Below, piece by piece: positions 31,533 to 37,201 of a stretch of 64,000 nucleotides of DNA. Numbering within the stretch: the stretch's first letter is position 1; each line of letters opens with the position of its first letter. The stretch lies in the NCBI GenBank assembly GCA_947501555.1, contig CANMWG010000001.1:620001-684000 (forward strand), read 5' to 3'. Origin of the DNA: an uncultured Paracoccaceae bacterium (GTDB lineage: Bacteria; Pseudomonadota; Alphaproteobacteria; Rhodobacterales; Rhodobacteraceae). The notes under the pieces are model-generated. The model saw only the letters and a program-made list of their open reading frames with translations. It had not been told where the DNA came from and made no database searches. A program made the position numbers and the translations under genes.

Positions 31533-31907
31533 AGCTATGCGCAAAGCCACAAATGATTGAACGTTGGAACCGCGGCTTATTGCGCGTGCAGTCAAGCGGG
31601 CAAATCATTCGGTTGGCGTAGGACGCAGATGCCCCCTGCAAGACATTGGATGAGGCGTTGCAGGTAAGTTTCAACCCGAAGAGACAATGCAGTGAATAGG
31701 CCAAGTTTTGCGGGGTGGTGCCATTGACCACCACCAGCGTATGGTTGGTGTCCTTCTCCCAAAACCGAAGCGGGTGGTCCAAAAGGTGCCGTTTTTCCTA
31801 TCATGCGCTAGAATTGCGGTGAAATATTGGGCGATCTATATCGCGGCGTTTATGATGAACCAACTTTGCCTTTGCCTCGCGCAAAAATTACTCTTCGCTT
31901 AAGTGGC
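31533..31907. other. Intergenic region upstream of the guanidine riboswitch
   Basis: About 375 bases with no credible gene on either strand. It should contain the promoter of the riboswitch transcript; I cannot single out a convincing -35/-10 pair. Confidence 0.4.
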
Positions 31908-32013
31908 AGGATGTCTAGGGTTCCGCCTTTCGTTTAAGGGTCAGGTCCGAGAGATATCGCTGTCCGGCAAAAGACCGGATAGTACACGGCGGGGCAAAAT
32001 CCCGGGAGGCTAC
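31908..32013 (+). promoter_or_regulatory. Guanidine-I (ykkC) riboswitch
   Basis: The conserved ykkC-yxkD core is easy to read: CTAGGGTTCCG (31915-31925), then TCAGGTCCGAGAG (31941-31953), a variable stem TGTCCGG...CCGGAT, and ACACGGCGGGGCAAAATCCC GGGAGG (31984-32009, written in two parts). These blocks, in this order, are the hallmark of the guanidine-I aptamer, which turns genes on when guanidinium binds. It lies about 75 bases before the start of a guanidine uptake and hydrolysis operon. The expression platform is not obvious; no strong T-run follows, so control may be translational. Confidence 0.93.
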
Positions 32014-32088
32014 TGCGCAGGTTTGACCCGCGCTCCGCTATGCCCTCCACGCGGTCATTCCATTTGTGAAACAACGATGGGACCGAAG

Positions 32089-33135
32089 ATGAAAAATCTT
32101 TTGACAATGACAGCGATGGCCCTTTGCCTCGCATCCGCCACGACAGCTCAGGAAAAAACTGAATTCCGGGTCGCCTGGTCGATCTATGTGGGCTGGATGC
32201 CCTGGGGTTATCTGGAAGACAGCGGCATCATGGACAAATGGGCCGATCAATACGGCATCGATGTCGAGATTGTGCAGATCAACGACTATGTCGAATCCAT
32301 CAACCAATATACAGCCGGTGCCTTTGATGGTGTAACAGCCACCAACATGGATACGTTATCTATTCCATCGGGCGGCGGTGTGGATACCACTGCGTTGATC
32401 GTTGGCGATTATTCTAACGGCAATGATGCGGTGATCATCAAAGGTGAGGGTGATCTGGCAAGTCTTGCAGGCAAACCTGTGAACCTGGTGGAATTGTCTG
32501 TGTCGCATTACTTATTGGCCCGCGCCTTAGACAGTGTGAGCTTGGCTGAGAAGGACCTGGCGGGGGTCATCAATACCTCTGACGCTGATATGATTGCAGC
32601 CTTTGCCGCCGACGATGTTGAGGCGGTGGTGACCTGGAACCCGCTGGTATCCTCCATTCTGGAAGATCCCGCTGCGAGCAAGCTGTTCGATAGTGCCGAT
32701 ATCCCTGGTGAGATCATCGACCTGATGGTTGTGAATACGGAAACCCTAGAGGCCAATCCCGATTTCGGTAAAGCTTTGGTCGGCGCATGGTATGAGGTCA
32801 TGGGGCTGATGGCCGCTGGCGACGAAGAGGTGCTGACGGCGATGGCCGAAGCCTCTGGCACCGATTTGGCCGGATATCAGGCGCAGCTGGCCTCGACCGA
32901 GATGTTCTTTACCCCGGCAGAGGCGGTGACCTTCACATCGGGGGCGGAATTGCCCGCAACGATGGTCAACGTCGCTGAGTTCCTGTTTGACAAGGGCATC
33001 TTGGGCGAGGGCGCCCCATCGGCGGATTTCGTTGGTGTGGAATATCCCGACGGGTCAATCACGGGTGACGAAAGCAACGTCACATTCCGCTTTGATACGA
33101 CCTACATGCAAATGGCCGCCGACGGTGCGCTGTAA
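32089..33135 (+). CDS. Guanidine ABC transporter substrate-binding protein
   Basis: A 348-residue periplasmic binding protein with signal peptide MKNLLTMTAMALCLASATTA. It belongs to the NitT/TauT-like group often annotated as a urea or urea-carboxylase-associated transporter (VGWMPWGYLEDSGIMDKWAD, ITS-like VTATNMDTL, SVSHYLLARAL). Relatives sit in guanidine-riboswitch operons, so guanidinium is the likely ligand. ATG 32089 is chosen for the signal peptide; ATG 32077 is an alternative. Confidence 0.87.
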   Translation: MKNLLTMTAMALCLASATTAQEKTEFRVAWSIYVGWMPWGYLEDSGIMDKWADQYGIDVEIVQINDYVESINQYTAGAFDGVTATNMDTLSIPSGGGVDTTALIVGDYSNGNDAVIIKGEGDLASLAGKPVNLVELSVSHYLLARALDSVSLAEKDLAGVINTSDADMIAAFAADDVEAVVTWNPLVSSILEDPAASKLFDSADIPGEIIDLMVVNTETLEANPDFGKALVGAWYEVMGLMAAGDEEVLTAMAEASGTDLAGYQAQLASTEMFFTPAEAVTFTSGAELPATMVNVAEFLFDKGILGEGAPSADFVGVEYPDGSITGDESNVTFRFDTTYMQMAADGAL

Positions 33136-33176: not shown

Positions 33177-33989
33177 ATGCGATTGATCAATATCAAACCG
33201 AACCGGCCGCTTGCTGTGTTTTTGACTTTGCTGCCATTCGCGTTGGTGTTTATTGCCTATGCGGTAGGCTCTGACATTCGTCTGGCCGCAAACCCGTCTG
33301 ACAAGCTGCTGCCTGCCCCCAGCACAATTTGGGACACAGCCGTGCGGCTCACCACAGAAGGGGACCGCAGGAGCGGGCGCATCTTGTTTTGGTATGATAC
33401 CTGGGCCAGCCTGAAACGCCTCGGCTTGGGCATTGGAATCTCGGCCAGTGTTGGGCTGCTTATCGGCTTGATGATCGGGCTGTTGCCACTGGTCCGCAGT
33501 TTTCTGGCACAGTTTGTCGCCGTTCTGTCGATGATCCCCCCGCTGGCTTTGCTGCCCATCCTGTTCATTGTCTTCGGCTTGGGCGAACTGTCAAAGGTCG
33601 TACTGATCGTCATCGGCACCTTGCCCTTTATCATTCGCGACCTATCCCAACGCACACTTGAGGTGCCGCAGGAATTACTGGTCAAAGCGCAGACATTGGG
33701 GGCCTCAAGCTGGGTCATCACCCTGCGGGTGGCCTTGCCCCAAGTGATGCCGCGCTTGATCCAAGCGGTCCGTTTGTCCCTTGGCCCTGCGTGGCTGTTC
33801 CTAATTGCCGCCGAGGCGATCGCCGCTGATCTTGGCCTGGGCTACCGCATCTTTCTGGTCCGGCGCTATCTGGCGATGGATGTAATCCTGACCTACGTCA
33901 TTTGGATTACGATCCTTGCATTCGTGATGGATTGGGCCTTGCGCCGTCTGTCGCGCTGGATGTTCCCCTGGGCGGAGGAGGGGCTATGA
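33177..33989 (+). CDS. Guanidine ABC transporter permease
   Basis: A 270-residue permease with about six membrane segments. The EAA loop, which contacts the ATPase, is near residues 160-180 (EVPQELLVKAQTLGASSW). It resembles NitT/TauT-family permeases. The stop overlaps the ATPase start by four bases (ATGA). Confidence 0.9.
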   Translation: MRLINIKPNRPLAVFLTLLPFALVFIAYAVGSDIRLAANPSDKLLPAPSTIWDTAVRLTTEGDRRSGRILFWYDTWASLKRLGLGIGISASVGLLIGLMIGLLPLVRSFLAQFVAVLSMIPPLALLPILFIVFGLGELSKVVLIVIGTLPFIIRDLSQRTLEVPQELLVKAQTLGASSWVITLRVALPQVMPRLIQAVRLSLGPAWLFLIAAEAIAADLGLGYRIFLVRRYLAMDVILTYVIWITILAFVMDWALRRLSRWMFPWAEEGL

Positions 33990-34756
33990 GTTTTGTCACC
34001 GTCACAGACGTTTTCCAGTCCTACGGCTCCCGGCCCATTATTGAGCGGGTCAATGTCAGCGTTGATGAAGGCGAGTTCATTTCGATTGTGGGCGCCTCAG
34101 GCTGTGGAAAATCCACGTTTCTGCGCCTGCTTTTGGCGCAAGAACGACCGACACGGGGCGAAGTCCGTGTGGCTGATGCCACACCTGCGAAAGAACCGGG
34201 CTTGGACCGCGGTGTTGTTTTTCAACGCTATTCGGTCTTCCCACATATGACCGTGCGTGAAAACGTTGTGGCGGGTGAAAGCCTGCGGCGCGGCTGGGGG
34301 CGGTTTTTCGGCGCTGATCTAAAGGCGGCTCGGGGCAGGGCGGACGAAACACTGACCCGCTGCGGGTTGGACCATGTGGCGGATCAATACCCTGCAACCT
34401 TGTCAGGTGGCATGCAGCAACGGCTGGCCATTGGGCAGGCGCTGGCCGCAAAACCGCGTATTTTGCTGCTAGACGAACCCTTTGGCGCGCTTGACCCCGG
34501 CACCCGGCTGGCCATGCATGACTTCCTGCTTGATCTGCGGGCCGAGACGGGCATGACCGTCTTTATGGTCACCCATGATCTTGAAGAGGCGTTCAAGCTT
34601 GGCGACCGCGTTTTGGTTTTCGACAAACCGCGCTGGGACCCGCAAGATCCCTGCCTGAATGGCGCCACAATCACCTACGACTTTGATGCCCGCGATGGCG
34701 GCATCCCTTTCCAAACACTCAAGGAGGACACCCATGTTTTGCATGAAAACGGATAG
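33986..34756 (+). CDS. Guanidine ABC transporter ATP-binding protein
   Basis: A 256-residue ATPase. Walker A is GASGCGKST, the signature is LSGGMQQRLAIGQAL, and Walker B is ILLLDEPFGALDP; the H-loop His is in MVTHDLEEA. ATG 33986 is chosen because it overlaps the permease stop (ATGA) and follows GGAGGAGGGG. The 3' end overlaps the hydrolase gene by 23 bases, so translation is coupled. Confidence 0.92.
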   Translation: MSFVTVTDVFQSYGSRPIIERVNVSVDEGEFISIVGASGCGKSTFLRLLLAQERPTRGEVRVADATPAKEPGLDRGVVFQRYSVFPHMTVRENVVAGESLRRGWGRFFGADLKAARGRADETLTRCGLDHVADQYPATLSGGMQQRLAIGQALAAKPRILLLDEPFGALDPGTRLAMHDFLLDLRAETGMTVFMVTHDLEEAFKLGDRVLVFDKPRWDPQDPCLNGATITYDFDARDGGIPFQTLKEDTHVLHENG

Positions 34757-35978
34757 ATCACGATCTCATAACCCGGTCGATCACCGGCACGATGAACGGC
34801 GCTATCACCACCCCGATCTGACCAAACTGCGCGGCTGGAAGGCGATGCAGGACGAAGCCGATCTGCCGGGTAGCGGCTGGGCAGAAGAGCGTAAATGGGC
34901 GCTGCGCATGGGGCTTACGGGCGCTGACAGCATCGAAGACAAGTCCATCCCCACATTCGCGCGCGGCGAGCTGCCGCATTACGCGGGTATCAATACGTTT
35001 CTCAAGGCCCCTTACGCCGAAGACGTGACCGAGGTGGGTGATTACGATGCGACCGTTCTTGGTATCCCGTTCGACGGTGGTACGACTTACCGTGCAGGCA
35101 CCCGTTTTGGTCCGCAAGGCGTGCGTAAGATCAGCGCGCTTTATACCCCCTACAACTACGAAATGGCGGTCGATCTGCGCGAACAGATGACGCTATGTGA
35201 TGCAGGCGATGTCTTTACGATACCTGCGAATATCGAAAAGACCTTTGACCAGATCAGCCGGGCCGTGAACCATGTGGCCTCGTCAGGGTCACTGCCGATC
35301 ATGATCGGCGGGGATCACTCCATTGGGTTCCCCTGCGTGCGTGGGATCGCGGAATGTACCTCGAAAAAAATCGGGATCATTCACTTTGACCGACATGCGG
35401 ATATTCAGGAAAAAGACCTGGATGAGCGTATGCACACAACCCCTTGGTTCCACGCGACAAACATGGAAAACGTACCGGCCAAAAACCTTGTGCAAGTGGG
35501 CATCGGTGGCTGGCAAGTGCCCCGCGACGCGGTGAAGGTGGCGCGCGACCGCGAAACCAACATCATCACCATGGGTGACATGGAAAAGATGGGCATCGAC
35601 AAAACTGCCGAAATGGCGCTCGAAATGGCGTGGGACGGTGTCGACATGGTCTATCTGTCGTTCGACATCGACAGCATCGATTGTGGCTTTGTCCCCGGCA
35701 CGGGCTGGCCCGAACCCGGTGGGTTCCTGCCGCGCGAAGCCCTTGGTCTGGTCTCGAAAGTCGCGGCCGAAGGCATCTGCGGGATGGAACTGGTTGAGGT
35801 CGCACCACCCTATGATCAATCCGAAATCACCGCCCTCATGGGGACACGCGTGATCGTCGACGTCCTGGGATCGCTCGTTGCATCAGGCAAAATGGGCGCA
35901 CACAAACGCCACATGGATAAGCCGGTTAAAATCCCACACGGTGAATTTGAAGGAAAGCGGTGGTCCAATGCCACATGA
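34734..35978 (+). CDS. gdmH: Ni-dependent guanidine hydrolase (arginase/agmatinase fold)
   Basis: A 414-residue ureohydrolase-fold enzyme. The metal ligands are in GGDHS (His195), FDRHAD (Asp219, His221, Asp223) and SFDIDSID (Asp311, Asp313). The sequences FDRHADIQEKDLDERMHTT and PGTGWPEPGG match the GdmH type rather than agmatinase; GdmH from Synechocystis uses two nickel ions to split guanidine to urea and ammonium. The N-terminal extension (1-100) is also a GdmH feature. AAGGAGG (34721-34727) fixes the start at 34734, inside the ATPase gene. The riboswitch, importer and fold together make guanidine a strong substrate call. Confidence 0.9.
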   Translation: MFCMKTDRSRSHNPVDHRHDERRYHHPDLTKLRGWKAMQDEADLPGSGWAEERKWALRMGLTGADSIEDKSIPTFARGELPHYAGINTFLKAPYAEDVTEVGDYDATVLGIPFDGGTTYRAGTRFGPQGVRKISALYTPYNYEMAVDLREQMTLCDAGDVFTIPANIEKTFDQISRAVNHVASSGSLPIMIGGDHSIGFPCVRGIAECTSKKIGIIHFDRHADIQEKDLDERMHTTPWFHATNMENVPAKNLVQVGIGGWQVPRDAVKVARDRETNIITMGDMEKMGIDKTAEMALEMAWDGVDMVYLSFDIDSIDCGFVPGTGWPEPGGFLPREALGLVSKVAAEGICGMELVEVAPPYDQSEITALMGTRVIVDVLGSLVASGKMGAHKRHMDKPVKIPHGEFEGKRWSNAT

Positions 35979-36399
35979 TATCGTGAACGGCCATATCGGC
36001 CATAACCACCACCACCCCGACCATTTGCACAGCCATATGCCCGATGCCGACAAGGCCGAAGAGCTTTTGGTGCTGACGACGCAATTCATCGACGGTTTCG
36101 TCGCGGCCAAAGACAAGATGGCCTATCTGCGGATTGCCGGTGTGCCTTTGGAAGTCGATAGCCAAGACGGCGGGCCGCCTATGAAACTGGTGGATGTGAC
36201 ACTGACCACCGAATGGCAAGTCGGCACGGCAAGCCCATCCTTTGGCTCACGCGAGCTGAGTTATCTGCCTTATCCGGGCGACATGGTGACCGAACGCACG
36301 AACATGGGGTTTGTTTATGTCTCACTGGACGCCAAACATGTGACAGATCTGCGTAGCTTTCTACAAAATCACCCGGCTGCAGCGAAGGATCACGCATGA
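35968..36399 (+). CDS. Histidine-rich protein, candidate nickel-supply factor for GdmH
   Basis: A 143-residue protein that overlaps gdmH by eleven bases. Nine of the first 23 residues are His (GHIGHNHHHPDHLHSH core), like the metal-binding tails of HypB, UreE and SlyD. The remaining domain (about 28-143) starts with AEELLVLTTQFIDGFVAAKDKMAYLRI, is predicted mixed alpha/beta, and has no family I recognise and no signal peptide. The HypA/HypB-like chaperones that serve GdmH in cyanobacteria are missing from this operon. A nickel store or delivery role is inferred from composition and position only. Confidence 0.7.
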   Translation: MPHDIVNGHIGHNHHHPDHLHSHMPDADKAEELLVLTTQFIDGFVAAKDKMAYLRIAGVPLEVDSQDGGPPMKLVDVTLTTEWQVGTASPSFGSRELSYLPYPGDMVTERTNMGFVYVSLDAKHVTDLRSFLQNHPAAAKDHA

Positions 36400-36563
36400 G
36401 ACTGATCATCTTCGCCGCGGCCCTTATCGCCGCAACGCCATCCTATGCGCATCACGAGGTCGTTGCTGCTGCCTCACTCGCGCCTGTCGCCTGGGGATTG
36501 GCGACGATTACGGTTGCAGGTTTTGCGGCCTGGCGCAGGCGGTTAAAGTTGCGGGGCAAATGA
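36396..36563 (+). CDS. 55-residue membrane peptide at the end of the guanidine operon
   Basis: ATG 36396 overlaps the preceding stop (ATGA) and the frame runs 55 codons to TGA 36563. Residues 1-18 (MRLIIFAAALIAATPSYA) look like a cleavable signal, leaving a mature N-terminus His-His-Glu. Residues 25-46 form a second hydrophobic segment, ending in WRRRLKLRGK. The layout suggests a tiny periplasm-facing membrane protein with a His pair that could bind nickel. Small His-starting proteins occur in nickel uptake systems, but no homology is claimed. Confidence 0.6.
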   Translation: MRLIIFAAALIAATPSYAHHEVVAAASLAPVAWGLATITVAGFAAWRRRLKLRGK

Positions 36564-37018: not shown

Positions 37019-37201
37019 ATGCTTAACTTTATCAAAAACTTCCGCAACGACGAAGACGGTGCTGTCACAGTTGACTTCGTTGTTCTGACAGCTGCAATCG
37101 TTCTGCTCGGCCTGGCCGTTGGCGCAGCGATCAGCCAAGGTGCAACAGATCTGGCCAACGACATCGAAGATGAACTGGGCTCAATCGATATCGGCAACTA
37201 A
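37019..37201 (+). CDS. Flp/Fap-like small pilin (type IVb)
   Basis: A 60-residue protein: a short charged leader (MLNFIKNFRNDEDGA), then a hydrophobic helix VTVDFVVLTAAIVLLGLAVGAA, then an acidic tail. This matches short Flp-type pilins of roseobacters, with processing probably near the GA-VTVDF junction. AGGAGGG (37004-37010) precedes the start. No tad assembly genes are in the window, so it is a solitary pilin gene with its own terminator. Confidence 0.72.
   Translation: MLNFIKNFRNDEDGAVTVDFVVLTAAIVLLGLAVGAAISQGATDLANDIEDELGSIDIGN

Follow-up and report, generated by a model that had tools for sequence, protein, structure and literature searches.

A histidine-rich protein encoded with guanidine hydrolase in Alphaproteobacteria as a candidate nickel-delivery protein

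The guanidine operon and its histidine-rich gene product

The window, that is the whole stretch of 64,000 nucleotides that was analysed, contains an operon in which a guanidine-I riboswitch is followed by genes for an ABC importer, for the guanidine hydrolase GdmH and for two small proteins. The first of these small proteins, termed here the partner, is the subject of this report. The features of the operon are listed below with the evidence for their assignment.

31904 to 32010, + strand: guanidine-I riboswitch aptamer (Rfam RF00442, 81.5 bits, gathering threshold 63)
32083 to 33135, + strand: ABC importer substrate-binding protein, probable guanidine importer (NCBIfam TIGR03427, 521.3 bits)
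33177 to 33989, + strand: ABC importer permease (Pfam PF00528)
33986 to 34756, + strand: ABC importer ATPase (Pfam PF00005)
34734 to 35978, + strand: gdmH, Ni-dependent guanidine hydrolase (phmmer E 3.1e-163 to 7esr/7oi1; Pfam Arginase)
34806 to 34817, + strand: HHPD motif in the N-terminal extension of GdmH, residues 25-28 (sequence; possible role in docking or hand-off)
35968 to 36399, + strand: partner gene, encoding a His-rich tail (residues 1-24) and a core domain (residues 25-143) (open reading frame, relatives, structural model)
36396 to 36563, + strand: open reading frame of 55 codons with a signal-peptide-like start, the sequence AHHEVV, one hydrophobic segment and a basic end

Guanidine is the probable substrate of the importer as judged from the operon context. 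The riboswitch was also found at 9 of 9 related loci and at 7 of 10 distant loci. The enzyme is identified as GdmH by the near full-length match to solved GdmH structures together with the guanidine riboswitch control. Residues 36-388 aligned with 7esr/7oi1 and residues 37-392 with 9fek (phmmer E 6.4e-160). Although the chains of all three entries are titled 'probable/putative agmatinase 2', 7oi1 is the GdmH of Synechocystis and 9fek the guanidinase of Nitrospira inopinata, as given in the covered part of PMC11410670. GdmH is reported to be Ni2+-dependent, and that of cyanobacteria to require two proteins for Ni2+ delivery as well (PMC12186494 and PMC12930504, covered in part). Right behind the operon lies an open reading frame of 60 codons (37019-37201) resembling a Flp-type pilin by eye, followed by a sub-threshold match to the Rfam trpB motif (35.1 of 59 bits).

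The partner gene encodes 143 residues between an ATG start, which falls within gdmH 11 nt from its end, and a TGA stop. Histidine occupies positions 3, 9, 12, 14, 15, 16, 19, 21 and 23. A prior sequence-only reading of this DNA had described an unrecognised protein with nine His in its first 23 residues and a gene overlapping gdmH, a description that was confirmed in each respect, the overlap measuring 11 nt and the protein belonging to no Pfam or NCBIfam family and matching no PDB fold. The window partner matched 0 Pfam families at E <= 10 and no family of NCBIfam or PHROGs, while comparison with PDB sequences gave only weak matches, the best with E 0.11 and an alignment beginning in the His-rich part. 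The best Pfam match when all 81 aligned members were searched was 'viral movement protein' (E 0.013, 13 members), which was too weak to be counted. Homologues are 54-91% identical. Over 90 core codons compared with four relatives dN was 0.05-0.15, and dS was 1.09-1.51 in the three of the four for which it was computable. This conservation and the low dN/dS rule out a chance open reading frame, and the codon comparisons show that the gene is under purifying selection.

A profile scan of genome contigs gave 221 confirmed stretches encoding relatives, the best 80 of which were examined. The start MPHD was present in 74 of these best 80 of 221, with the start codons assigned by a script giving preference to MPHD wherever present. 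Starts departing from an X-His-acid pattern were MAPH (three), MPPD (one) and MAGA (one) among the same best 80, and also that of the protein at locus L158; more distant members begin with MHDD, MHGG or MHRG. Up to a HLHSH motif, 5-27 His were counted per protein (best 80 of 221). Cys is absent from the window partner, and any Cys was found in 6 of the best 80 of 221 relatives. Conservation is higher in the core domain than in the tail, the length and His content of which vary freely. The tail is nearly gone in genome G419 (one His) and in G441 and G618 (few His) with the core retained, and the His run was therefore dropped as the defining feature of the family. In the partner at L007 (1414-1896, - strand) the C-terminus is His-rich as well, which suggests that either terminus of the protein can carry the His reservoir.

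The structural model of the partner had a mean pLDDT of 79.3, with ten-residue blocks across residues 31-140 at 69-97 and the lowest values at about 81-110. Helices are predicted at residues 25-46, 50-57, 128-133 and 136-142, with five strands in between. A Foldseek search with the model returned nothing at E <= 0.001; the best match, a COMMD-like protein, had E 0.51 and was not accepted as a relative.

Co-occurrence of the partner with gdmH

Among the best 80 of the 221 stretches, which belong to Rhodobacterales and other Alphaproteobacteria where the titles name a group, gdmH is located directly upstream of the partner gene in 79 and the remaining one starts at a contig edge. The two genes overlap in 58 of these 79 loci, 11 nt being the commonest length of overlap (44 of 79), and are nowhere separated by more than 377 nt. 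In a sample of the window's family (295 genomes), with a GdmH threshold of E <= 1e-80, the partner was matched in 45 and GdmH in 44, all of which are within the 45 (hypergeometric p 7e-52, a value that ignores relatedness). Both genes are on one contig in 43 of the 44; in the other (G098) they lie at the ends of two contigs. In the class sample of 385 genomes the partner profile and GdmH each matched in 13, with both in 11 and the genes adjacent where read. In the phylum sample of 398 genomes, 7 genomes encode GdmH; each of them belongs to the window's class, and the partner was present in 7 of 7. The partner of Sinorhizobium fredii is 24% identical to that of the window by BLAST, and a profile comparison of the two gave a homology probability of 97.6%.

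The two class genomes with GdmH alone (G357 and G372) encode more distant enzymes that are 51 and 55% identical on realignment, and the partner profile had no match anywhere in either assembly; the completeness of G357 is 68%, and its gene extends to the edge of the sequence that was read. Both enzymes (L150 and L151) contain a His-containing insert in mid-protein, HESV..H..SH.HDVG, and possibly represent a separate substrate or metal solution. No clean case was found for a free-standing role of the partner without gdmH. The 45th family genome (G159, L045) has a match of 26 residues in a gene with a broken frame, followed by a lookalike of the third open reading frame. The two class genomes with the partner alone are G418 (L152), which retains the C-terminal half only, and G655 (L153), in which the first ~141 residues of the importer substrate-binding protein are joined to the partner core, a junction that could be an assembly fault. 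In none of the three was gdmH found, and from their sequences all three cases look like operon remains.

Relatives of gdmH on plasmids of Actinobacteria (L161-L164) have no partner alongside, and neither HypA nor HypB is encoded beside them in the two annotated records. At L161, on a plasmid of Rubrobacter indicoceani, the gdmH relative is followed by genes for a sodium:solute symporter, formamidase and urease, which represents another operon design for guanidine nitrogen. Of the 163 gdmH loci read, 157 have an HHP[DNS] motif close to the N-terminus of GdmH, a count that includes some genomes twice and excludes loci truncated ahead of that region. The six loci without it (L150, L151 and L161-L164) are the six at which no partner was found, although common descent alone could explain this correlation, the six enzymes being distant. 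Overall, the partner is very probably a dedicated accessory protein of GdmH.

Nickel accessory genes and alternative roles

Scans with Pfam and NCBIfam families revealed no HypA or HypB gene in the window's operon, in agreement with the sequence-only reading, which had further named homologues elsewhere in the genome as a possible substitute. None was found there at the cut-offs: HypA had no match at E <= 0.001, and the best protein for the HypB model reached 74.5 bits, below the cut-off of 121.2, and proved to be UreG (304.6 bits), encoded beside urease alpha and UreE. Of the 43 other family genomes with gdmH, 12 have HypA above the cut-off, and the identical 12 (of 44) have HypB, leaving 32 of 44 in which both were below it. 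In one of the 12, G266, the only one read, HypA and HypB belong to a [NiFe]-hydrogenase cluster ~46 kb from gdmH. Of 13 gdmH genomes that are more distant, 4 have HypA above the cut-off (one of them partial), 3 have HypB and 9 have neither. Across both samples, 41 of 57 gdmH genomes have neither protein at the cut-off and 57 of 57 have the partner. The suggestion that the protein replaces the HypA/HypB-like GhaA and GhaB fits the presence of the partner in 44 of 44 gdmH genomes of the family and beyond, and the lack of both chaperones at the cut-offs in most of these genomes.

The gene following that of the partner in S. fredii encodes HupE (Pfam PF04955, 157.1 bits), and in G821 a HupE 40% identical to it occupies the same place. 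In 35 of the best 80 of 221 loci (L046-L125) the partner gene is instead followed by one for a protein of 50-66 residues that begins like a signal peptide, carries His just behind this at the probable mature end and contains a single hydrophobic segment, as called with an ad hoc pattern rather than a trained predictor. The small gene overlaps that of the partner by 4 nt (ATGA) in 34 of the 35, and the 55-codon open reading frame of the window likewise overlaps by 4 nt. The window's small protein matched no Pfam family, and hence not PF04955 (HupE/UreJ). By eye these small proteins resemble the N-terminal end of HupE, which is the protein encoded in that place in S. fredii.

The overlapping genes and the near-perfect co-occurrence would also suit an assembly partner, subunit or regulator of GdmH for which metal binding is incidental, as would a conserved core without a metal-protein relative and members almost without His. 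However, the recombinant GdmH of Nitrospira forms a homohexamer in the absence of any such protein, according to the covered part of PMC11410670. In addition, the His expansion is found in nearly all members and HupE is encoded next in S. fredii and G821, and such a role is considered unlikely. It is quite unlikely that the partner is a nickel buffer or store, the tail of which merely keeps Ni2+ near the site of GdmH synthesis while loading is spontaneous or accomplished by others. Hpn and the His tails of HypB hold nickel, and a store would be consistent with the freely varying tail length and His count and with the second, C-terminal His stretch at L007. Yet the core is the better conserved part, members almost devoid of His are retained beside gdmH, and a store gives no reason for the tie to one enzyme gene.

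A UreG-sized match to the HypB model below the cut-off (62-85 bits) was present in 43 of 44 and 13 of 13 gdmH genomes, with UreG identity checked for that of the window, and UreG and UreE could share in the nickel supply of GdmH. With these urease chaperones and the third small gene also present, the partner may act together with others rather than as the single-protein nickel loader that the sequence-only reading put forward. That UreE and UreG provide the nickel and the partner is just an adaptor bringing GdmH to them is nevertheless very unlikely: the wide occurrence of these matches, their location ~3 kb (G389) and ~6 kb (G618) away from gdmH and the formation of urea as the product of GdmH (PMC12186494, in the part covered) are in its favor, whereas urease genes are absent from the window's gdmH operon and G098 (84% complete) has no UreG-sized match.

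Proposed nickel delivery and comparison with known systems

Delivery of nickel is the best reading of the partner's role because of the His expansion, the linkage to HupE, the nickel requirement of GdmH and the missing HypA and HypB. The gene is linked both to a nickel enzyme (79 of the best 80 of 221 loci) and to nickel transport (HupE in S. fredii and G821). We consider it probable that the partner is a nickel-delivery protein dedicated to GdmH, belonging to an apparently undescribed family and having the operon role of GhaA and GhaB. Weighing against nickel loading are the near loss of the tail in G419, G441 and G618, the N-termini that depart from the pattern, the presence of HypA and HypB in 12 of 44 genomes and a core without a fold match to a metal protein. 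A linked loader is not needed everywhere, since the Actinobacterial relatives are without the partner and N. inopinata is without a known loader in the covered part of PMC11410670.

In the proposed mechanism, guanidine would induce the importer, the enzyme and the partner together, and the His-rich N-terminal tail of the partner would gather Ni2+ from the cellular nickel pool, aided in its supply by HupE or the third small protein where present. The initiator Met is removed before Pro; if this rule holds here, MPHD would be processed to Pro-His-Asp, the likeness of which to the HypA site is a lead. Ni2+ would then move to the processed N-terminus, to a site made up of Pro-His-Asp or, in the rhizobial branch, Met-His-x, which may be laid out like the Met-His-Glu site of HypA. 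The core domain would dock on nascent or apo GdmH, perhaps at the N-terminal HHPD motif, and the partner would hand over Ni2+ without a nucleotide hydrolase of its own. The most far-reaching form of this proposal, an independently evolved, GTPase-free metallation by a single protein with a HypA-like X-His-acid site, its own His reservoir, docking at HHPD/HHPN on GdmH as sole client and nickel import by a mini-HupE-like peptide, is speculative and appears doubtful.

For guanidinases without HypA/HypB-like helpers the nickel source is stated to be unclear in comammox, for which no nickel loader was found (PMC11410670, in the part covered). The partner family is a concrete candidate for the nickel loader of alphaproteobacterial guanidine users, many of which are marine, and would, if the reading is correct, enlarge the small set of known nickel delivery proteins by an unrelated family. 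The partner could also mark likely true GdmH among proteins annotated as 'agmatinase', and might improve production of fully loaded guanidinase. No such partner is described in the literature covered, outside of which lie the GdmH paper of Funck et al. 2022 and PMC12704784.

The family, undescribed as far as searched, is best read as falling with the known enzyme-specific metal-delivery proteins. CooJ, UreE, Hpn and SlyD are likewise small nickel proteins with His-rich stretches. The partner has no Pfam or NCBIfam relation to CooJ, Hpn or SlyD, from which it is set apart by family scans rather than direct comparison, and no match to the UreE of the window's genome (comparison probability 0.4%). 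No match was obtained to the HypA profile (Pfam PF01155; profile comparison probability 0.3%), and the two CXXC zinc motifs of HypA are lacking. HypA binds nickel via Met-His-Glu (PMC7055735, in the part covered), to which the Met-Pro-His-Asp or Met-His-Asp of the partner is alike in layout alone, and that only if Met is removed. Comparison with a HypB aligned His-rich stretches only (probability 16.8%), and the partner has no Pfam or NCBIfam match to the P-loop GTPases HypB and UreG.

Genes for hypA and hypB are often found in operons with GdmH analogues (PMC8390497, covered in part). The operon of the related nickel enzyme MefH includes hypA, hypB and, downstream, hupE, and MefH activity depends on co-expression of HypA and HypB (PMC11399263, covered in part). 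MefH/DmgH is a Ni-dependent ureohydrolase accompanied by nickel genes including hupE, in which the gdmH locus of S. fredii also ends, but hypA and hypB are present there whereas here an unrelated gene that follows the one for the enzyme would do their job. A close parallel in operon type is that of Synechocystis, where a guanidine riboswitch, ABC importer and enzyme are combined with GhaA and GhaB, for which nickel delivery has been proposed (PMC12930504 and PMC12186494, in the parts covered). GhaA and GhaB, known here from papers only, are a pair with one member each from the HypA and HypB families, whereas the operon described here encodes in their stead a single Cys-free protein without detectable similarity to either HypA or HypB.
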